From Balneolaceae bacterium (GTDB lineage: Bacteria > Bacteroidota > Rhodothermia > Balneolales > Balneolaceae): a stretch of 56,294 bases of DNA. Shown here one piece after another: positions 5,567 to 28,388 of the stretch (the stretch's first letter is position 1; each line of letters begins with the position of its first letter). The position numbers were made by a program, and so were the translations under genes. The notes beneath the pieces were generated by a model. The model searched no databases and was not told the DNA's origin. It was given only the letters and a program-made list of their open reading frames with translations. The stretch covers positions 123,307 through 179,600 of the forward strand of contig VEMX01000028.1 of the NCBI GenBank assembly GCA_009711805.1, in the 5' to 3' direction.

Positions 5567-6194
5567 AAACATAGTATTTCCCGAAAAACTATTTGTAAGC
5601 GGTACTGATACCGGAATAGGTAAAACCGTGATTTCAACCATGCTGATGTCGGTGTTGGACGCCTCTTACTGGAAACCAGTACAGTCTGGGCTGGATGAGG
5701 AGACCGATACCGAGTTTGTACGTCGTATCTCAAAAGCAGACAACTCACGTATCATTTCTGAGCGGTATCGCCTGGAAACACCAATGTCTCCGCACGCGGC
5801 TGCAGATATTGACAGAGTTGAAATTGATCTTGCAGATTTTGCTTTGCCAGAATACCAGAGCCGGCATTTAATTGTTGAAGGGGCAGGAGGGCTTTGGGTA
5901 CCTTTGAACTGGAAGCATTCTATGCTGGATTTAATCCAACAACTGGATATCCCTGTACTTCTGGTTGCCCGTAGCGAGCTGGGTACTTTAAATCATACAT
6001 TACTTTCTTTAGAGGCATTGGAAAAAAGAGGAATAGAAGTATTCGGGGTTATTCTGAATGGCCCTCATCACAGTAGCAACTACGAAACGATCAAACATTT
6101 TGGCAAAGTAGCTGTTTGGGAAGTTGAACCTGTAGAAAAATTAAGAAAGAAAGCGCTGGAAAAAGCTTTCCTCAAAATGATAAATAATATTTAA
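5559..6194 (+). CDS. bioD: ATP-dependent dethiobiotin synthetase
   Basis: Closes the ureido ring of 7,8-diaminononanoate with CO2 and ATP to give dethiobiotin. The 211-residue length is normal. The P-loop GTDTGIGKT is at residues 15-23, WKPVQSG follows strand 2, and VEGAGGLWVPL is the conserved substrate/ATP loop. It overlaps bioC by 8 bases and is followed by bioA after 13 bases. Confidence 0.95.
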   Translation: MDKNIVFPEKLFVSGTDTGIGKTVISTMLMSVLDASYWKPVQSGLDEETDTEFVRRISKADNSRIISERYRLETPMSPHAAADIDRVEIDLADFALPEYQSRHLIVEGAGGLWVPLNWKHSMLDLIQQLDIPVLLVARSELGTLNHTLLSLEALEKRGIEVFGVILNGPHHSSNYETIKHFGKVAVWEVEPVEKLRKKALEKAFLKMINNI

Positions 6195-13881: not shown

Positions 13882-15171
13882 TTATGATTCCAATAAGAAC
13901 TCTTTGAAATCTTCATATTCGGAAGAAAAGGGGATAGACTTTTTTTCTTGGTCCTCAAAACTAACCACCGTATTCAGCGAATGGTCGATTTGCTCTTCCA
14001 CTACATCTTTAAATTTATATGGATGTGCAGTTTCGAGAAAGATACCCGTCCCGGAATGAATATCCAGGTATGTTGAGAGACCTAAATAGCCAACAGCACC
14101 ATGTGGATCCAGCACGTAATCATTTTCCTGAGCTACTTTATTAATGGCTGCCCGCGTTTCCTCATCTGTGTATGAGTATCCGGATATATGATCCGACATT
14201 GCTGCATGCGAACCCTTAAACAAATCGAGTATGCGATGAAAATTACTGGGATCTCCCACGTCCATTGCATTAGAAATTGTTTGTTTACTCGGCCGGGGAC
14301 GATAGGTGGCAGTTTCCAAATATTCGGGTACGGTATCATTTATATTGGAACATGCCAGGAAATGTCCGATTGGCAATCCCATACGCTGAGCTATTAAACC
14401 GGCCGTCAGGTTTCCATAATTTCCACTTGGAACCGATATTACCACATCTTTCCATTTTTCAGGGGGCAATTGTCCCATCCCATAGAAATAGTAGATGCTC
14501 TGAGGAAGCATCCGGGCAATGTTAATGGAATTTGCCGAGGTTAGGTTTTTCCGGGATTGCAACTCCCCATCCAAAAAAGCTTGTTTCACCAGTTTTTGAC
14601 AATCATCAAAAGTTCCATTCACTTCCAGGGCCGTTATATTATTTCCGAGGGTGGTCATTTGTTGTTCCTGGAAATGACTGATTTTACCGGATGGATAAAG
14701 GATGACGACTTCAATATTGGCAACATCGTAAAAGCCCTGTGCTACGGCACTACCAGTATCGCCAGAGGTAGCAACAAGTACCGTTAATTTGTGATCGGAT
14801 TGTTTGCTGAAGTAACTGAGGCTTCGGGCCAGGAAGCGGGCTCCAACATCCTTAAAAGCGAAAGTAGGACCATGGAATAACTCCAGGGCATAGGTCTCTT
14901 CCGTCAATTGCTTTAAAGGGATATCGAAATTCAATGTGTCTTCAACAAGCTCTGAAAGGGCTTTGTCCGGAATCTCTTTTCCAATAAAAGGTTTCATAAT
15001 CTCGAACCCAATTTGGGGAAGTGAGAGGTTTCCCAGCTCTGCAAAGAAAGCAGGAGAGAGAACCGGAATTTGCTCTGGCATATATAAGCCGTTGTCTTCG
15101 GGTAATCCTTTAAATATTGCCTGCCGGAAGTTGGCAGGCTTTGCTTGTCCTTTAGTACTATAATATTTCAT
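13882..15171 (-). CDS. thrC: Threonine synthase
   Basis: PLP enzyme converting O-phosphohomoserine to threonine. It has 429 residues, close to E. coli ThrC. The N-terminal MKYYSTKG is typical; the PLP lysine is K107 in GPTFAFKDVGARF; ATSGDTGSAVAQGF and SANSINIARMLPQ are the conserved cofactor loops. It starts inside the end of thrB with a 4-base ATGA overlap, so translation is coupled. Confidence 0.96.
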   Translation of the reverse strand: MKYYSTKGQAKPANFRQAIFKGLPEDNGLYMPEQIPVLSPAFFAELGNLSLPQIGFEIMKPFIGKEIPDKALSELVEDTLNFDIPLKQLTEETYALELFHGPTFAFKDVGARFLARSLSYFSKQSDHKLTVLVATSGDTGSAVAQGFYDVANIEVVILYPSGKISHFQEQQMTTLGNNITALEVNGTFDDCQKLVKQAFLDGELQSRKNLTSANSINIARMLPQSIYYFYGMGQLPPEKWKDVVISVPSGNYGNLTAGLIAQRMGLPIGHFLACSNINDTVPEYLETATYRPRPSKQTISNAMDVGDPSNFHRILDLFKGSHAAMSDHISGYSYTDEETRAAINKVAQENDYVLDPHGAVGYLGLSTYLDIHSGTGIFLETAHPYKFKDVVEEQIDHSLNTVVSFEDQEKKSIPFSSEYEDFKEFLLES

Positions 15172-16100
15172 TCCAGCACCTCGGCACCTTTAGTGTTAAC
15201 GGATGAAACATATACATTGGAATCAATATTTTGTTGGTCATAGAGTGCTTTAAATGCCCTGGCGGTTTTATCTGCAATTTCTTTTCCCCGGCATAAGGCA
15301 AAAATAGAAGGACCCGATCCTGAAATACTGCATCCCAGGGCTCCACAATCCATTGCTATCTGTTTGGCCTGTGCAAGGTAGGGGATTAGCATAGAACGAA
15401 CCGGTTCGGCTACCACATCCTTCAACGAACGACTGATGAGCCCATAATCCGCTTTGGCCAGACCGCTTACCAAGCCGGCTACATTGCCCCACTGAGTGAT
15501 AGCATCTTTCAGATCAATCTGCTTTTTGAGCATTTTTTTAGCTTCTGAGGTTTTAACCTCTATCTGGGGATGTACTACTGTAGTAAATAAATCTTTGGGG
15601 TAATCCAGTTGAATAAGATCCAGAGGGGTATAACTGCGAACGAGTACAAAGCCTCCCAGCATGGAAGGTGCCACATTATCGGCATGGGCAACACCGGATG
15701 AGGCGCGTTCTCCTTCCATGGCAAATTCAACCAGTTTCTCTTTATTATAAGGGCGGCCAAGTAGTTCATTCACCCCGAAAACCCCGGCTACAGAACTGGA
15801 GGCACTGGAGCCCAGCCCGCTTCCCGGCTTTACTTTTTTGGTAAGCTCAAACCCGAAGCCAAAGTCAGGAGGGGAGTCCAAATGATCCAATAATGCTTGT
15901 ACAGCTATAGTTACTACATTTTCATTTTTATACCTGGAGAGCTGATTATCGCCATGAATGGCGGTTATAACCAGGTCTTTAACGGGAGTTTTCTTTATAA
16001 TTAATTGGTCACCAACATCATCCATGGGGTAACCTAACACATCAAAACCACATGCAACATTAGATACGCTTGCAGGGGCAAATACTTTAATTGAATTCAT
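15168..16100 (-). CDS. thrB: Homoserine kinase (GHMP family)
   Basis: Phosphorylates homoserine with ATP, supplying ThrC. 310 residues; the GHMP ATP-binding loop PGSGLGSSASS is at residues 92-102, and the C-terminal motif GCSISGSGPSIFAL is present. It lies 8 bases after thrA and overlaps thrC by 4 bases. Confidence 0.95.
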   Translation of the reverse strand: MNSIKVFAPASVSNVACGFDVLGYPMDDVGDQLIIKKTPVKDLVITAIHGDNQLSRYKNENVVTIAVQALLDHLDSPPDFGFGFELTKKVKPGSGLGSSASSSVAGVFGVNELLGRPYNKEKLVEFAMEGERASSGVAHADNVAPSMLGGFVLVRSYTPLDLIQLDYPKDLFTTVVHPQIEVKTSEAKKMLKKQIDLKDAITQWGNVAGLVSGLAKADYGLISRSLKDVVAEPVRSMLIPYLAQAKQIAMDCGALGCSISGSGPSIFALCRGKEIADKTARAFKALYDQQNIDSNVYVSSVNTKGAEVLE

Positions 16101-16108
16101 CGTTGATT

Positions 16109-18559
16109 TTAAGCTGAGGCTATTTTCATTATATCTGCGAATATTCCTGAAGCAGTAACGGCTGCTCCTGCACCGGCTCCTTTCACCACCAGGGGCTGCT
16201 CACTATATCGATTGGTATAGAAAAGCACAATATTATCTTTGCCCCCCAGATTATAAAAAGGGTGTTCGGGGCCAAAAGATTCGAGGTCCGTTTGGGCTTT
16301 CCCATCTTCGAAGGTAGCTACGTATTTGAGACGTTGTCCTTTGGCAGAAGCTTGCTTATAAATGTTCTGGAATACTTCGTCATGTTCATCCAGTTTGTCA
16401 TAAAACTCCTCAACTGTGTTGGTATCCATGCAGCTTTCTGGTACAAAACCGTTATTGGTGATGTCTTCCAGTTCCAGTTTATGTTCGCTTACCCGGGCAA
16501 GAATCAGGATTTTTCGCATCACATCCACACCACTGAGGTCGATTTGTGGATCAGGTTCCGTAAATCCTGCGGAGTCGGCATCCCGCACTACTTCACTAAA
16601 AGGTTTGCTGCCGTCATAATGATTGAACAGGAAATTCAGTGTACCGGAAAGCACTGCTTGTATTTTGTGTACTTTATCACCGCTTTTAATGAGGTCGTTT
16701 AACGTAGATATAACCGGTAAGCCAGCTCCTACATTCGTTTCATAAAGAAATTTAGCTTTATACTTTAAGGCAGAATTGGTGAGTTCTCTGAAGGTTTCAT
16801 AAGAAGAGGAGCATGCAACCTTATTGGGAGTAACGACCGAGATACTGCTTTCCAGCACTTCTTTATAAAGTGTCGCGATATCTTTGGAAGCTGTTGAGTC
16901 AATGAAAACACTGTTTCGGAGGTTTAACTCTTTCATATGCTCTACAAAGGATGACGTTTCCATGGCTTCGCTTTGCTCACTCAGCAGATGTTCCCAGTTG
17001 TTGAGGTCTATGCCGTTTTCATCAAAATACATTTGGCGGGAATTGGCAAGGCCGGTAACAAGGAGGTCAAGATTCAGGTTCTCGGCTAAATAATCCCGTT
17101 GTGCTTTAACCTGTTCGATGAACACTTTTCCCACATTTCCCACTCCAATCATAAAGAGGCTAAGTTTACGACGGTCGGAGAGGAAGAAGCTTTCATGAAT
17201 ACTATTTAGGGATTTCTTAAGGTCCTTTTTGTCAATCACTACGGAAATGTTCAGCTCGGTAGATCCCTGGGCAATGGCCCGCACGTTTACCCCATTGTGA
17301 CTGAGCGTATCAAACAGTTTAGCACTGATGCCCACCTGCTGCTTCATGCGTGATCCAACCAAGGCAATGATTGATAATCCGGTCTCTTCCTCAAGAGGAT
17401 TGATTTTATGAGCCTCTATCTCCCGGGCAAATTCATTACTTACCGATTTCCGGGCTTGTTCAAGGTCTTCCTTAGAAATCCCGACGGTGATGGTATGCTC
17501 TGAGGAAGCCTGAGTGATCAGAATGACATTAATTCCCTCACGGCTCAGAGATCCGAAAAGCCTATACGAGATGTTAGGTACGGCTATCATCCCGCTGCCG
17601 GAGAGCGTAAGCAGTGCAATGTCATCAATAGATGAGGTGCCTTTTACGAAATTGCCATTTTCAGATGCTCCCACCGATATTTTGGTGCCGGAGTGATCTG
17701 GCGCAAAGGTATTTTTGATAGTGATGGGAATATCGGCATCCAACACGGGTTGAATGGTAGGCGGATAAATCACCTTGGCTCCAAAATGAGAAAGTTCCAT
17801 AGCCTCCTCATACGATAAACTTTTGATGGTATGGGCATTAGGTACCAGCCGGGGATCGGAGGTCATCATTCCATTAACATCCGTCCATATCTGTAGTTCA
17901 GAGGCCTCTACGGCTGCGGCAATGAGTGCAGCGGTATAATCCGACCCGCCACGTCCCAGGGTAGTGATGTGATTATCCGTTTTGGAAGAAGCTACAAAAC
18001 CGGGACATATAGCTATGGCAGCTGATTCCTTAAATGTTTGCTGGATGTTCTCATAAGTGAGAGCAAAATCTACGGTAGCTTTGCCAAATTGACTATCTGT
18101 TTTTATGAATGCTTTGGAGTTATATAGTTCGGCATCCAGCCCGGTAGATTTTAAATAGTCTGTCACAATCATAGAGGAAATAACTTCTCCATAGCTCATT
18201 ATATGATCGTTGGAACGAGGGGAGAGCTCGCCAATCAGAAAAACACCCCGGCATATATCTTCAAGTTCGTTTAATGCCAGTTTTACCTGTGCCAGTGAAT
18301 TGCTGCGCGTGTTAACGGGCAGTAAGCTCGTACAGATTTCAAGATGACGTTGTTCAATCTGTGCTAATAGTTCCAGGTACTCTTCATTTCCGGCAGAGGC
18401 AAGGATGGCACACCGTTCCAGCAGGTTAGTGATACCGCTAAGAGCAGAAATCACAACAACCAGTTTATCCTGTTCCGATTGCTGGCGGATGATGTGTTCA
18501 GCTTTTTTAAGGTTTTGAGCGTTAGCGACGGAAGTACCGCCAAATTTTAAGACATTCAT
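16109..18559 (-). CDS. thrA: Bifunctional aspartokinase / homoserine dehydrogenase
   Basis: Catalyses the first and third steps from aspartate to threonine and methionine. At 816 residues it matches E. coli ThrA (820). The kinase domain opens with KFGGTSVANAQNL and has TLGRGGSDYTAALIAAA. Two ACT-type regulatory segments (GMIAVPNISYRLFGSL; QQVGISAKLFDTLS) lie near residues 320-460. The dehydrogenase domain has the NAD(P) loop MIGVGNVGKVFIEQ near 475 and GGSDK-type dehydrogenase motifs such as GTLNFLFNHYD. The ACT domains suggest allosteric inhibition by threonine, as known for the family; transcription is probably also attenuated (see leader). Confidence 0.96.
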   Translation of the reverse strand: MNVLKFGGTSVANAQNLKKAEHIIRQQSEQDKLVVVISALSGITNLLERCAILASAGNEEYLELLAQIEQRHLEICTSLLPVNTRSNSLAQVKLALNELEDICRGVFLIGELSPRSNDHIMSYGEVISSMIVTDYLKSTGLDAELYNSKAFIKTDSQFGKATVDFALTYENIQQTFKESAAIAICPGFVASSKTDNHITTLGRGGSDYTAALIAAAVEASELQIWTDVNGMMTSDPRLVPNAHTIKSLSYEEAMELSHFGAKVIYPPTIQPVLDADIPITIKNTFAPDHSGTKISVGASENGNFVKGTSSIDDIALLTLSGSGMIAVPNISYRLFGSLSREGINVILITQASSEHTITVGISKEDLEQARKSVSNEFAREIEAHKINPLEEETGLSIIALVGSRMKQQVGISAKLFDTLSHNGVNVRAIAQGSTELNISVVIDKKDLKKSLNSIHESFFLSDRRKLSLFMIGVGNVGKVFIEQVKAQRDYLAENLNLDLLVTGLANSRQMYFDENGIDLNNWEHLLSEQSEAMETSSFVEHMKELNLRNSVFIDSTASKDIATLYKEVLESSISVVTPNKVACSSSYETFRELTNSALKYKAKFLYETNVGAGLPVISTLNDLIKSGDKVHKIQAVLSGTLNFLFNHYDGSKPFSEVVRDADSAGFTEPDPQIDLSGVDVMRKILILARVSEHKLELEDITNNGFVPESCMDTNTVEEFYDKLDEHDEVFQNIYKQASAKGQRLKYVATFEDGKAQTDLESFGPEHPFYNLGGKDNIVLFYTNRYSEQPLVVKGAGAGAAVTASGIFADIMKIASA

Positions 18560-18634
18560 GTGTAAGGTTGATACGTAAAGTGAGTATTGACTTCAGTTGA
18601 GTTAATGGCAAAGCTGCCCAATGGACGATATGTA

Positions 18635-18656
18635 GAAAAGCACCCCCTAAGGGGTT
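18635..18656 (-). terminator. Attenuator-like hairpin overlapping the thr leader stop codon
   Basis: On the minus strand AACCCC TTA GGGGGT GCTTTTC forms a short GC stem followed by four T. The leader peptide's last codons (ACC CCT TAG) lie in the left arm, so a ribosome finishing or stalling in the Thr codons would change whether the stem forms. The stem is short and the U-tract modest; an alternative antiterminator pairing was not worked out. Confidence 0.55.
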
Positions 18657-18760
18657 GTAATAATCGTTGTGATGGTAGTGGTTGCAGATATAGCAATTCC
18701 GCCTGAAGTGAGTTCTTCAGAAGTAGGAATTAAAGTGCTATGTCTGGTAGTCAATTTCAC
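18647..18760 (-). CDS. Threonine operon leader peptide (attenuation)
   Basis: A 37-codon frame upstream of thrA from GTG at 18760 (MKLTTRHSTL...) to TAG at 18649-18647. The last 12 codons read A-T-T-T-I-T-T-I-I-T-T-P: seven Thr and three Ile, the regulatory amino acids of a thr attenuator. The pattern is strikingly like E. coli ThrL. AGGG lies just upstream of the GTG; an in-frame TTG two codons later is an alternative start. A hairpin with a T-run overlaps the stop, and thrA begins 87 bases downstream. Function is inferred: ribosome stalling at Thr/Ile codons when charged tRNA is scarce would allow read-through into thrABC. Confidence 0.75.
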   Translation of the reverse strand: MKLTTRHSTLIPTSEELTSGGIAISATTTITTIITTP

Positions 18761-18914
18761 TGCCCTAAGATTATTTGTTTTAGCGATGAAAGTAAACCCC
18801 CAACTTCATTTTTTATGAAGTTTTTTCTCAGCACTTGTAATAAGAGCACTTATGCAGGAGAATATGTAGAAATGAATCCTGCCAGCTTAATTGCTGACAG
18901 GGGAAAGCCACATC
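18761..18914. promoter_or_regulatory. Probable thr operon promoter region with two hairpins
   Basis: Lies between the leader start and the end of the next upstream gene. Two inverted repeats are visible: CTTCAT/ATGAAG near 18805-18822 followed by TTTTTT on the plus strand, and CTGCCAGC/GCTGACAG near 18878-18900. The second may be the terminator of the upstream membrane-protein gene. I cannot place a promoter with confidence. Confidence 0.35.
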
Positions 18915-24312: not shown

Positions 24313-25311
24313 TTAATTAAGATGAAAATCCCATTCCGACGGATAACCACGTTCATCAAAAATTTCACCTGTATAGGGATTGTATCCATAGGGTGCATTT
24401 TCTTGAGCTTCATATTTGCCTTGTAACGCTCTATCTTTTTGTGAGTAGTGTATCGGGTCGCTTTTAGTAAGCTCTATTCCGTGAACCTTGCATAGGTGGA
24501 AAAATGAAGCAATCGTGATGCCGTTGCGGTTCGATTTTAAACACTTATTGTATTGAACATCACACTCACGGGAATTGTAGTCGGGGTGCCATTGGCTAAC
24601 CCTGTGAAATAAAGATCTGCCAGATTCTCCAAACTCTTCAGATAAGGCAAAACCAACTTTAAGCCAGTTATCGTAACTATCTGTAATATCGGTGTGAGTC
24701 ATTGAAATTTTATCGACAAGCTCTTCCACTTTTTCCCGATTATTTCTTCCAGTCGGTCGGGTGCTGGTATTGTCAATCGTATAGGTGAAGACTTCAGCAT
24801 CTACATTGAAATAAGGGTCGGGGTCATAACTGATAAAACGAAATGATGCTACATTCGAGGGTGCGGGGTCAATGGTTATGCCTGTATTGCTGAAGGCTTT
24901 CTGTATAGCTCTGAAATGGGCTTTGTGCTGGTCTTTATGCTTAATTGGTATCAAACCCCACAATCCATTGCCCGACGTGCTGTAACTCAAATATGCGACG
25001 TATGGGATATGCTGAATTTTAAACTTCAGGTCATCCATGTTGACAGCGTTATCTTTGCTATCAATATCAAACTGAATAAGTCCAGAATGTTCAATCATTC
25101 CCGATTCACCTCTATTGCTAAAAGTACCTGAAGGTGTGATACCTGATAAAGATCTCTTCTTAACTTGATACGCTTCACCTGATAAACAACGTAATTGCTG
25201 AATAACATCACTGTTATCATTCCTTAGCCAGTCCAGCAAGTTCACACTGGTAGGTGCATCTGGTTTCCGCACTGAAGGGAAAGACGATATTTTAACATCT
25301 AATCTATTCAC
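24313..25311 (-). CDS. VirE_N (BT4734-like) plus PriCT-type replication/primase-like protein
   Basis: 332 residues. The N-terminal part (LIQFDIDSKDN, YVAYLSYSTSGNGLWGLIPI, FRAIQKAFSNTGITIDPAPS, SFRFISYDPDPYFN) matches the BT4734/VirE N-terminal domain, an archaeo-eukaryotic-primase-like fold common on Bacteroidota mobile elements. The C-terminal region near 205-285 (ITDSYDNWLKVGFALSEEFG, GRSLFHRVSQWHPDYNSREC, ITIASFFHLCKVHGI) looks like a PriCT-2 domain. The helicase domain often found with this pair is absent. It probably primes replication of the excised element. Start overlaps the upstream gene's stop by 4 bases. Confidence 0.75.
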   Translation of the reverse strand: MNRLDVKISSFPSVRKPDAPTSVNLLDWLRNDNSDVIQQLRCLSGEAYQVKKRSLSGITPSGTFSNRGESGMIEHSGLIQFDIDSKDNAVNMDDLKFKIQHIPYVAYLSYSTSGNGLWGLIPIKHKDQHKAHFRAIQKAFSNTGITIDPAPSNVASFRFISYDPDPYFNVDAEVFTYTIDNTSTRPTGRNNREKVEELVDKISMTHTDITDSYDNWLKVGFALSEEFGESGRSLFHRVSQWHPDYNSRECDVQYNKCLKSNRNGITIASFFHLCKVHGIELTKSDPIHYSQKDRALQGKYEAQENAPYGYNPYTGEIFDERGYPSEWDFHLN

Positions 25312-25850
25312 GGGGCAAAATTCTGAAACGCTTTTAAATCTGAATTACTCATTTTTTTTTCTTGAGCCTTTTCTTTTTCTGCTTCTTTTTCTTCTTCCTT
25401 TTCCTCTTCTTCTTCTTCAGGGGTATCAATAGTGCTTTGATAGTCTAACCTTACCCTATTGGCAGGGCTTAAATCAGGGTTTTCACGAATAAATGTATTC
25501 CAGAGTCCTGATTCCTTTAAATCCTTTATGTAGCGCTTATGTGGGGGTGAATTAGGATTTAGCTTACCATATTGTTCACGAATGAACTGAGTAAGGAACC
25601 ATCTGCCATTGCCCAAGTTTCTTAAACGCTCTTCACCTGAATTAACTTTCTTTTGTAGCTCTTCAGGATTGACGTTTAAACCGTGCATCCGTTCTGCATA
25701 CAGAAGTTCACCTTCCATCTCAAATTGCCCTATGGTATCGCACTTTAATTGTAAGAACATCCAGAAAAGGCGTTCATCAGGATTTAGTTTCAAAAAATGT
25801 CCTGCATCCAGTAAAGCAGAGTCCATAAAGCGTTTACGTTGCTTAATCAT
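25308..25850 (-). CDS. Replication-initiator-like protein with acidic/basic tail
   Basis: 180 residues. The N-terminal 110 residues (KRFMDSALLDAGHFLKLNPDERLFWMFLQLKCDTIGQFE) resemble the winged-helix N-termini of phage and ICE replication proteins (the 'LSP.YKLFW..L...CD..G' pattern). The C-terminal third is low complexity: a run of glutamates and lysines (residues about 145-165). It begins directly after the TAG of the winged-helix gene and overlaps the VirE_N gene by 4 bases, so all three form a replication operon. Family assignment is from memory of the pattern. Confidence 0.6.
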   Translation of the reverse strand: MIKQRKRFMDSALLDAGHFLKLNPDERLFWMFLQLKCDTIGQFEMEGELLYAERMHGLNVNPEELQKKVNSGEERLRNLGNGRWFLTQFIREQYGKLNPNSPPHKRYIKDLKESGLWNTFIRENPDLSPANRVRLDYQSTIDTPEEEEEEKEEEKEAEKEKAQEKKMSNSDLKAFQNFAP

Positions 25851-26174
25851 CTAAACCCCCCAAGCCTTTGTAGGGAATAAATCGGGTGTGCTTACCTTTG
25901 GCAGATCTTCAGGTTTTGCAGAATAATATTTCGCCTTGTGTCCTGTGATTTTGCAGGGCTTTTCATAAACAACTATAACTTTGTTTTGCTCTTCGAGTTT
26001 AGCCAGATAGCGAGTCAGATTTGCCCGTATAATGCCAGTCTTTACACTTAGCATCATAGACGTTGCTGGGGCTTTCTTCAGTTCCTCTATGGTCAATATT
26101 ATTTGATTCTTTTTTTTGCTCTGAGTCATCATTGTTACAAGTTTTTTTACCAGTGTTTTACCTATCATCATCAA
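25851..26174 (-). CDS. Winged-helix DNA-binding protein of the element
   Basis: Up to 107 residues; an alternative start at 26132 (MMTQSKKKNQIILTIEELKK) gives 93 and may be the real one. The segment TSMMLSVKTGIIRANLTRYLAKLEEQNKVIVVYEKPCKITGHKAKYYS reads as helix-turn-helix followed by a beta wing. Likely a regulator or replication accessory factor of the element. The motif AACTTGTAAC lies immediately upstream of the 26132 start. Confidence 0.6.
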   Translation of the reverse strand: MMMIGKTLVKKLVTMMTQSKKKNQIILTIEELKKAPATSMMLSVKTGIIRANLTRYLAKLEEQNKVIVVYEKPCKITGHKAKYYSAKPEDLPKVSTPDLFPTKAWGV

Positions 26175-26237
26175 TTATCATTACAAATAACTGATTTATC
26201 ATTGTTTACGCTTTTTAGTTTATACCATAGCATAGAG

Positions 26238-26528
26238 TCAAACCGACCTTTTAGTCTTTCTATCCTGAAGGAACTTTTCTGCATCTACTGTTTCGTATAA
26301 AATGCGTCTGCCTTCTTGGATATAGGGTAGGTTCCCAGCATCACGATGATATTTTTGAGTGGGTGAACTCATTCCCGTTAACTCTTCAAATTCAGAAGTA
26401 GTCAGGTATGGTTTTCGATTAGCTTGTCGGATTAATTGAGGGATAAGCGTTTCTAAAACAGAAGCTGTTTTACGCTCAATGATTTCCTCAAATTTACTCT
26501 GGGTGGGTATGAATACTTCGTTCTGCAT
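26238..26528 (-). CDS. Excisionase-like / MerR-type helix-turn-helix protein
   Basis: 96 residues. The C-terminal half, YLTTSEFEELTGMSSPTQKYHRDAGNLPYIQEGRRILYETVDAEKFL, is the helix-turn-helix plus wing of excisionase/AlpA-type proteins used by small integrative elements. The N-terminal half (SKFEEIIERKTASVLETLIPQLI) is helical and may dimerise. An inverted repeat GGTCGAA/TTCGACC lies just upstream of its start and may be its operator. Confidence 0.7.
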   Translation of the reverse strand: MQNEVFIPTQSKFEEIIERKTASVLETLIPQLIRQANRKPYLTTSEFEELTGMSSPTQKYHRDAGNLPYIQEGRRILYETVDAEKFLQDRKTKRSV

Positions 26529-26530
26529 AA

Positions 26531-26562
26531 GGTCGAATGTTTAGTTTTAATTAACTTCGACC
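26531..26562. promoter_or_regulatory. Inverted repeat upstream of the excisionase-like gene
   Basis: GGTCGAA at 26531-26537 and TTCGACC at 26556-26562 are perfect 7-base inverted repeats separated by 18 A/T-rich bases, 3 bases before the start codon at 26528. Possible operator for the element's HTH proteins or an mRNA hairpin covering the start. Confidence 0.4.
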
Positions 26563-26622
26563 GTATGATAAAAGGCGGTTAACGATACCAGCAATAGTAC
26601 CGTAGGTATGGTTTTTTAATTA

Positions 26623-27081
26623 CTACCTTAACTTGTTTCTCTGGGTGTTAAATGAAGCGTAACTGGAATAAATTATCTCTTCCATTTCACTGTTAAATTT
26701 TTCTATCGCTTCAGGATAAGTACATTGATTTGATCTTCTAATTTCTTCAACACGATCAACACGTTTTTTTCTTGTATCGTAAAGGTCTTTAGGCGTTTTT
26801 ATGATACCTGATACATTTTCTTTATTAGCCTTCGATATTTCAAGGTCAATTAAATTAATCCATTCATTAGCCCAACTACTTCTAACCTGATTTTTATCTC
26901 TATCCTGTATTATCCACCCCTTAATTTTTCTTAAACGGAAAAGGCGTTTTTTAGGGTCGGCAATATCAAATATTGCAGGTATCTTTTTTTGATACTGCTC
27001 TTGAAGAGTTCCTCTGTCATCCCTTTCGATACCACCTTCAAAACTCAATTCTGCATTAAATTTCTTTTTATCCTTAGTCAT
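26623..27081 (-). CDS. Basic hypothetical protein of the element
   Basis: 152 residues, highly charged (MTKDKKKFNAELSFEGG; KKRLFRLRKIKGWIIQDRDK; RKKRVDRVEEIRRSNQCTYPE), predicted mostly helical. No recognisable domain. Located between the integrase and the excisionase-like gene. Its start is preceded, 14 bases upstream, by the same 11-base motif (GAACTTGTAAC) found 14 bases before the integrase start, which suggests shared control. Confidence 0.65.
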   Translation of the reverse strand: MTKDKKKFNAELSFEGGIERDDRGTLQEQYQKKIPAIFDIADPKKRLFRLRKIKGWIIQDRDKNQVRSSWANEWINLIDLEISKANKENVSGIIKTPKDLYDTRKKRVDRVEEIRRSNQCTYPEAIEKFNSEMEEIIYSSYASFNTQRNKLR

Positions 27082-27095
27082 CGTATTTTTATTTC

Positions 27096-27106
27096 GTTAC
27101 AAGTTC
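27096..27106 (-). promoter_or_regulatory. GAACTTGTAAC motif, copy 1
   Basis: Found 14 bases before the ATG at 27081. An identical copy at 28403-28413 sits 14 bases before the integrase ATG, and a shorter one at 26134-26143 lies before the winged-helix gene. It could be a promoter element or a regulator-binding site. Confidence 0.4.
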
Positions 27107-27107
27107 T

Positions 27108-27141
27108 TACCCCAGTTCCGTTGCAGGGCTGGGGTATTTTT
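27108..27141 (+). terminator. Hairpin between integrase and the next element gene
   Basis: TACCCCAG (27108-27115) pairs with CTGGGGTA (27129-27136), followed on the plus strand by TTTTTATTT. The T-run is on the side facing the integrase gene, so as an intrinsic terminator it acts on plus-strand (antisense) transcripts; it may instead be an mRNA processing or attenuation structure. Confidence 0.5.
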
Positions 27142-27143
27142 AT

Positions 27144-28388
27144 TTAAAAGATTTCGTCGATTGCTTCATCCGCTGCCTGTACGTTAATAGTCTTCAGATA
27201 CTGCATTGTAGTTTTAATGTTTTGATGCCCTAATAAGATCATCAATTTATAAACGGGTATTTTTTTCTTCTCGATGGCATATTGGGCAAAACTATGCCGT
27301 GATGCGTGCATGCTTAAGTTTTCTTTTATGCCAGCCAGCTTTGCCAGCTTCTTAAGTCCAGAGATTTTTTTATCAGTGTTTTTACCATTAATTGTAGTGG
27401 TTGCGCTTTCAGTTTGCTTCTTTATTATTACAGAATCTTTTAGCTCTTCAGGGCTTAAATCTGCAAGAAAAGGAAGTATAAAATCATCGTCTTTACTGTC
27501 ATCATTTCTATAAAAATCTAAATATTTCTTACAGTCATCGGGTATCTTAACATCAATATTGACGCCTGTTTTATTCATTTTATATTTTAAACGGTCATTT
27601 ATCACGTTTTTCCATTTCAATCCTACTAAGTCCCCTACACGCATACCGCAAAAATAGAAAGACAGAATAAAAGCGTTTCGGGCGTGCCATAAATTACTAT
27701 CAGGTTCCAGATCAAGATTTTCCAGTTTATCAATCTGCAAAAGTGATAGCTTAGTTTTAGATGACGGCTGATTTTTTTTAGGCAAATTGAATGTTTTGTC
27801 TTCAACGGGATTTTTAGGAATTAGCTTATACAGAACCGCCTTATCCAGAATAGCCTTAATAGATGCTATGTTCTTATGTATCGTCGATGCTTTGTTTTTG
27901 TACTTAGATTGCAATTTACTGACGAATTCATTGAGAAAAACAGGGTCAATAAAATTGAGAGGTAGGTCATCGGAACCATGATGCTCTCTTAATTTCTTGA
28001 TAGCTACACGATTCTGTTTCCAAGTGTAGTAACTGGTCTGTTTAATTTCTTTTTGATAGTCTTCAGCAAGTTTGAAAAAATTATCCTTACTCGAATGTTC
28101 TAATCTTTTTTTGATAGCATCCGCACTGGATTGTTTCTGCCTTTTAAGATCTCGATAGGCTTGTTCTGCATCTGCTCTAATGATAGCCAGTTCATCATTG
28201 AGCTTATCGGGGGTGCGATGCTTAGCTTTTACTTTTTCTTTTCCATCATTCCACTGATTAGGTTTCAATCGAATGCCAGAACTCACATACTTTGATTTCC
28301 TGTTTTCCGTGATGCGTAAATAGAGAGGGCAATAACCCCGATTATCTGGTCGGTCTTCTCTTAGGTAAAACTTAAATGTTGCAGGCAT
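27144..28388 (-). CDS. Tyrosine recombinase / phage-type integrase
   Basis: 414 residues, Bacteroidota-type architecture: an N-terminal arm-binding domain (FKFYLREDRPDNRGYCPLYLRIT), a SAM-like core-binding domain (near 105-205) and a C-terminal catalytic domain. Catalytic residues visible are Arg in SFYFCGMRVGDLVGLKW, His-x-x-Arg in MHASRHSFAQYAIEK, His in LGHQNIKTT and the nucleophile Tyr in TMQYLKTI. It lies next to attR at 28552, the usual place for an integrase, and should catalyse integration into the tRNA-Leu 3' end. Confidence 0.92.
   Translation of the reverse strand: MPATFKFYLREDRPDNRGYCPLYLRITENRKSKYVSSGIRLKPNQWNDGKEKVKAKHRTPDKLNDELAIIRADAEQAYRDLKRQKQSSADAIKKRLEHSSKDNFFKLAEDYQKEIKQTSYYTWKQNRVAIKKLREHHGSDDLPLNFIDPVFLNEFVSKLQSKYKNKASTIHKNIASIKAILDKAVLYKLIPKNPVEDKTFNLPKKNQPSSKTKLSLLQIDKLENLDLEPDSNLWHARNAFILSFYFCGMRVGDLVGLKWKNVINDRLKYKMNKTGVNIDVKIPDDCKKYLDFYRNDDSKDDDFILPFLADLSPEELKDSVIIKKQTESATTTINGKNTDKKISGLKKLAKLAGIKENLSMHASRHSFAQYAIEKKKIPVYKLMILLGHQNIKTTMQYLKTINVQAADEAIDEIF

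Follow-up and report, generated by a model that had tools for sequence, protein, structure and literature searches.

How does the thrABC operon of a Balneolaceae bacterium respond to the supply of threonine, and does its leader work in the manner of E. coli thrL? The question comes from a window of 56,294 nucleotides, the whole stretch of DNA analysed here, which belongs to a genome of 4.08 Mb (G000:C2). On its minus strand, a promoter and a leader frame are followed by thrA, thrB and thrC in this order. thrA (16109..18559), the regulated first gene, encodes a bifunctional aspartokinase/homoserine dehydrogenase, while homoserine kinase thrB (15168..16100) and threonine synthase thrC (13882..15171) were assigned by sequence and operon position. 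A preliminary description had proposed that thrL-type attenuation operates here. Elsewhere in the window (24313-28388, minus strand), a tyrosine-recombinase-like integrase lies beside a primase/VirE-like protein and small genes; this region looks like an integrated mobile element.

The leader peptide and its distribution

The frame of 37 codons noticed earlier upstream of thrA is indeed present. It starts with GTG, runs from 18760 to 18647 of the minus strand, with thrA 88 nt further on, and encodes MKLTTRHSTLIPTSEELTSGGIAISATTTITTIITTP followed by a stop codon. Its last codons, ATTTITTIITTP (18650..18685), form a regulatory run with 7 Thr and 3 Ile in 12 codons. Ten or more Thr/Ile in 12 codons were never obtained in 2000 dinucleotide shuffles (the maximum, 9, was reached once) and the stretch is unique in the 56-kb window, all frames of both strands considered.

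This arrangement extends well beyond the window. A search with the hairpin 14-mer pattern ACCCCTTAGGGGGT gave a single match in each of 13 among 92 Balneolaceae genomes, all upstream of thrA; in these 13 the Thr/Ile leader terminates at a TAG within the hairpin and thrA begins 84-94 nt beyond. Scanning of GTDB contigs retrieved the same arrangement in Gracilimonas species, which are the closest named relatives carrying the element, in other Balneolaceae and in HGW-Bacteroidetes-4. It lies upstream of thrA in about 69 of the 76 examined thrA-bearing genomes of a distant Bacteroidota family (coded f24) and is also found in two further families (f29 and f37). Altogether 84 distinct thr leaders were collected, and the aligned upstream regions of Bacteroidota thrA orthologs retain both the Thr/Ile run and a covarying hairpin. 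The covariance model built from these leaders gives the window 63 bits, a score that is not independent since the window sequence is among the 84 training leaders, and detects no second copy in the window's genome. Its matches with E < 0.1 are all upstream of thrA, weaker ones being mixed. The window and six relatives gave no match to the Rfam Thr_leader family at permissive E-values. In two loci of genus g11 (L009 and L010), the region upstream of thrA retains part of the downstream spacer, the Thr run and the hairpin being lost.

A sigma70-like promoter is predicted at 18768..18796 (minus strand), with a -35 box TTTACT (18796-18791), a spacer of 17 nt and a -10 box TAATCT (18773-18768); Balneolaceae orthologs align with it as TTTACT-17-TAGACT/TACACT/TAATCT. 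The GTG start is supported by this promoter, which ends 7 nt upstream, and by the conserved spacing of 18 nt between the start and a 5′ motif described below. Transcription is predicted to start at about 18761, so the thr leader mRNA would be almost leaderless. Leader start codons are found about 5-17 nt behind the promoter -10/-7 boxes in Balneolaceae and in f24 and f29 alike. At f24 loci (e.g. L089, L094, L130, L149) a conserved palindrome, TAACNNTTGTTA, overlaps the promoter -33 TTG upstream of the thr leader and is possibly a transcription-factor binding site or a promoter element.

Control of thrABC by a leader that senses threonine and isoleucine is thus very probable. The ortholog comparison, a check that the initial proposal itself had named, strongly supports this part of it, with such a leader in a lineage remote from Enterobacteria and an N-terminus unrelated to theirs.

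The stop-codon hairpin and the repeated nonamer

The end of the Thr/Ile run enters a hairpin, hp1 (18642..18655, minus strand; -8.1 kcal/mol), composed of a 5′ arm ACCCC (18655-18651), a loop TTAG (18650-18647) and a 3′ arm GGGGT (18646-18642), whose pairing is also found in orthologs. The preliminary description had the final codons forming one arm of a GC hairpin, and hp1 does overlap the last Thr codon, the Pro codon and the stop TAG (18649-18647), the latter falling in the loop. The stop begins within the hp1 loop in 78 of 85 leaders; in the remaining seven the frame continues through hp1 and its stop comes shortly afterwards, no later than the next conserved word. With the loop as anchor, all 84 leaders form standard pairs over the inner 5 bp. 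The arms occur in eleven combinations, among them TCCGC/GCGGA and the inverted ACGGG/CCCGT; hp1 was picked as the best-pairing hairpin near the stop, which favours the count of 84 but not the covariation. When 3′ arms are swapped between genomes with different arms, a 5-bp stem is retained in 10% of cases, compared with 100% for native arms. A thrA tree with 51 rows requires at least 19 changes of arm class, and at least 5 for the TCCGC class. RNAalifold applied to a MAFFT alignment returned no structure, because from one family to another the arms are shifted by one alignment column, and the pairing counts were therefore made on hairpin-anchored sequences.

The hisL pause hairpin of E. coli and Salmonella, CCUGA-CUAGUCUU-UCAGG, has the leader stop in its loop and is separated by 11 nt from the paused 3′ end. 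RNA polymerase is halted about 11 nt past this hairpin and brought into step with the ribosome (pause reviewed in PMC9291695). Like the hisL hairpin, hp1 lies right after the regulatory codons and carries the stop in its loop, and it would probably act as a pause hairpin. In hisL, an antiterminator and an intrinsic terminator come after the hairpin; neither is found here. Compared with the 11 nt of hisL, the conserved site here begins 14-16 nt downstream of the base that opens the 3′ arm of hp1 (77 of 84 leaders), in most leaders 6-9 nt beyond the stem. This site, the 3′ motif CATATCGTC (18624..18632, minus strand; consensus CATATYAYC), is a candidate RNA-polymerase pause site. The E. coli pause consensus is G-10 Y-1 G+1 (PMC9291695); most 3′ motifs do not match it, and the base after the motif's Y is A in 72 and G in 10 of the 84 leaders. 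After the 3′ motif comes a small hairpin, hp2 (18607..18618, minus strand; GGCA at 18618-18615, loop GCTT, TGCC at 18610-18607), which occupies the same place in most orthologs and whose sequence is variable but mostly compensated.

A variant of the same nonamer, CATAGCACT, covers leader codons 7-9 (18734..18742, minus strand), exactly 18 nt past the start codon. Outside Balneolaceae, 43 of 69 thr leaders have NATAY at +18, as do 25 of 28 Balneolaceae his leaders, against a background, drawn from the window and the leaders, of 0.7-1.4% per non-start codon, 1.4% in the case of the thr leaders, and 1 of 41 window genes at +18. Leader starts outside Balneolaceae were partly assigned by this +18 rule; the motif tests used all in-frame starts together with the background. 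Most thr leaders of Balneolaceae carry the variant ATAGC. Codon 7 ends in T in 48 of 48 aligned cases while its amino acid varies between H, N, Y and D, which indicates a constraint on nucleotides. A conserved H-I-T-S peptide acting as ribosome-arrest motif was considered and rejected for codon 7, where nucleotides and not amino acids are conserved.

Balneolaceae hisG leaders provide a second example of this arrangement: a near-leaderless start, NATAY at +18 and a His run, with a stop-in-loop hairpin in most and without U-tract in 26 of 28. The 5′ part, common to thr and his leaders, is therefore not threonine-specific. After the hairpin of these hisG leaders (L209 at G000:C36, about 5650-5800; L208, L217, L245-L269), a pyrimidine tract such as TTTTTCTAC replaces CATATYAYC.

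The two CATATYAYC copies could have a role other than pausing. A 'downstream box' was once proposed around the region of codons 7-9, and the 5′ copy might be a translation element for leaderless initiation, or both copies might bind a protein, sensing by the leader being unchanged. The spacing of the 5′ copy is fixed relative to the start codon and not to the promoter, and its presence in thr and his leaders alike also points in this direction; the 5′ motif may act in translation. The 3′ copy, however, shares the consensus but keeps its place relative to hp1, with no start codon nearby, and we regard a non-pausing role of the nonamers as somewhat unlikely.

Another possibility is that the output is translational, the leader ribosome gating the thrA start codon through hp1 and hp2 or by reinitiation. 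In most genomes the leader stop is just 77-130 nt from thrA, and leader genes, also those of Bacteroidetes, have been suggested to work by reinitiation (PMC4833913). In the same work, however, the reinitiation peak is at 10-14 bp (PMC4833913), and neither hp1 nor hp2 pairs with the region up to the thrA start. Moreover, the leader stop and thrA are 77 to 243 nt apart, depending on the genome, while the spacing of hp1, the 3′ motif and hp2 stays tight. This variable distance favours a transcriptional over a translational readout, and we hold the latter to be unlikely.

The missing terminator and antiterminator

If the readout is transcriptional, the first model to consider is that of the preliminary description, in which hp1, with its short stem and the following CTTTTC, is an intrinsic terminator and an antiterminator forms upon ribosome stalling. 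The present leader has the features of E. coli thrL (Rfam RF00506, Thr_leader) that inspired it: a Thr/Ile leader directly upstream of thrABC, in which the position of the ribosome would be the sensor, a run overlapping a GC hairpin and a TTTT 2 nt after the stem. But this CTTTTC is the single T-run at the hairpin and is missing in nearly all orthologs, the longest T-run within 10 nt after hp1 being of 3 or fewer in 73 of 85 leaders. A strict scan for U-tract terminators between the Thr run and thrA was positive in only 1 of 84 thr leaders, whereas the same scan detected terminators in 11 of 12 non-Balneolaceae hisG leaders and 6 of 8 ilvD leaders. These lineages do, then, use intrinsic terminators in leaders. 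An intrinsic terminator at hp1 or at hp2 was thus rejected on the absence of U-tracts, and the T-run reading of the earlier description does not hold.

The other half of the switch is missing as well. In the 84 leaders, the complementarity of the hp1 arms to upstream or downstream segments equals that of swapped arms, in a test that clearly detected the arm's own partner as positive control. The four-segment thrL switch is consequently not supported. Nor do the CATATYAYC copies or hp2 pair with other leader segments, native and shuffled sequences being equal; a CATAGC copy is complementary to a later GCTATG in genus g4, and partly in the window, which is conserved but without covariation.

Classic attenuators do exist around this element. 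Upstream of ilvD in the window's own genome (L226, G000:C26) and in relatives (L223, L224), a classic Ile/Val leader peptide, MRTIIISLVIIQIIGIPYRPGEAL, ends at its stop and is followed by a strong U-tract terminator before ilvD; relatives also have them at hisG, and other Bacteroidota at thrA (L103, L104 and L180), where a thr leader peptide precedes an apparently classic U-tract terminator. L103 and L104 belong to other families, and these thrA cases would mean that the terminator-less form arose or disappeared inside the phylum. Such neighbours lend the thrL model some plausibility, yet the lack of terminators and of a partner for either hp1 arm makes it quite improbable for this leader, and the claim that thrL's own mechanism operates here is not supported. 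Besides lacking these two parts, the leader differs from thrL by the stop codon inside the hairpin, the near-leaderless start and the repeated nonamer.

Finally, that hp1 is a DNA palindrome serving as a repressor operator, the Thr run being incidental, would fit the invariance of ACCCC..GGGGT inside Balneolaceae and the other conserved palindrome of f24 promoters, but is extremely improbable, as an operator would keep its sequence whereas the arms are replaced by unrelated complementary ones, always directly follow in-frame Thr/Ile codons and enclose the stop in their loop.

A proposed role of pausing and Rho, and the place of the element among attenuators

We propose that thrABC is governed by a ribosome-controlled attenuator of a terminator-less type; taken as a whole, this explanation stands at close to an even chance, its sensing part being well supported. 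On the parts whose spacing and covariation the comparison establishes, it would operate as follows. Polymerase would pause first near the 5′ CATATYAYC, when the start codon has just emerged, giving time for ribosome loading, and a second time at the 3′ CATATYAYC, where hp1, lodged in the exit channel, would hold it in the manner of E. coli hisL. With charged tRNA-Thr and tRNA-Ile in ample supply, the peptide would be finished and the ribosome would exit at the stop inside hp1; hp1 would then re-form, the naked Thr run would load Rho and transcription would stop before thrA. A ribosome starved for a codon stalls at that codon. When Thr or Ile is scarce, the ribosome would thus be held in the run, blocking hp1 and covering the Rho-loading RNA, and transcription would proceed into thrABC.

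We infer release by Rho because no intrinsic terminator exists, and it is the more tentative part of the model, possible but somewhat short of probable. Rho is encoded in 6 of 6 genomes tested. The Thr run has on average 31% C and 7.5% G across leaders, but this C-rich, G-poor composition follows automatically from Thr codons and is thus weak evidence for a rut site; in the spacers between hp1 and thrA, C is only mildly above G. Besides full Rho, Balneolaceae genomes (G000:C20:14542-15648, G021 and G013) encode another Rho-like protein, which is shorter, with about 410-424 aa, and scores under the family cut-off.

Leaders without terminator have precedents. In E. coli tnaC, Rho acts on a leader ORF and free Trp is sensed by nascent-peptide arrest. 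The thr leader resembles it by its leader ORF, the lack of an intrinsic terminator and the presence of a rho gene, and differs in its conserved hairpin and repeated motif as well as in the mode of sensing. The cys leaders of Mycobacterium carry codons of the pathway's amino acid, have no terminators, and Rho was suggested to act (PMC1262725); they have no conserved hairpin, unlike the element described here with its hairpin and repeated motif. In the same phylum, transcriptome data of Flavobacterium psychrophilum gave 'strong clues' for leader peptide attenuation at amino-acid operons, and the main text of that study describes no thr element, motif or terminator-less architecture (PMC9723704). 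In the literature covered, main texts in open access, neither this architecture nor the repeated motif turned out to be described.

To our knowledge, amino-acid attenuation has been little explored outside Proteobacteria, Actinobacteria and Firmicutes. We file the element as a new variant of ribosome-mediated attenuation that departs from the thrL class by two features, terminator and antiterminator. Rfam does not contain this RNA element, which is found across the phylum and covaries strongly. It probably senses an amino acid via a leader peptide, yet lacks both the terminator and the antiterminator by which textbook attenuation is defined. More speculatively, and in our opinion fairly unlikely in this complete form, Bacteroidota would possess a two-pause attenuator in which one pause word, CATATYAYC, set 18 nt behind the start codon, first loads the ribosome onto a nearly leaderless leader mRNA and, set behind a stop-codon hairpin, then synchronises it with polymerase, Rho terminating transcription. 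As the 5′ word is common to thr and his leaders, it would serve the phylum as a coupling signal of general use. The conserved words next to the start codon and to the hairpin offer a handle on transcription-translation coupling and polymerase pausing in Bacteroidota.
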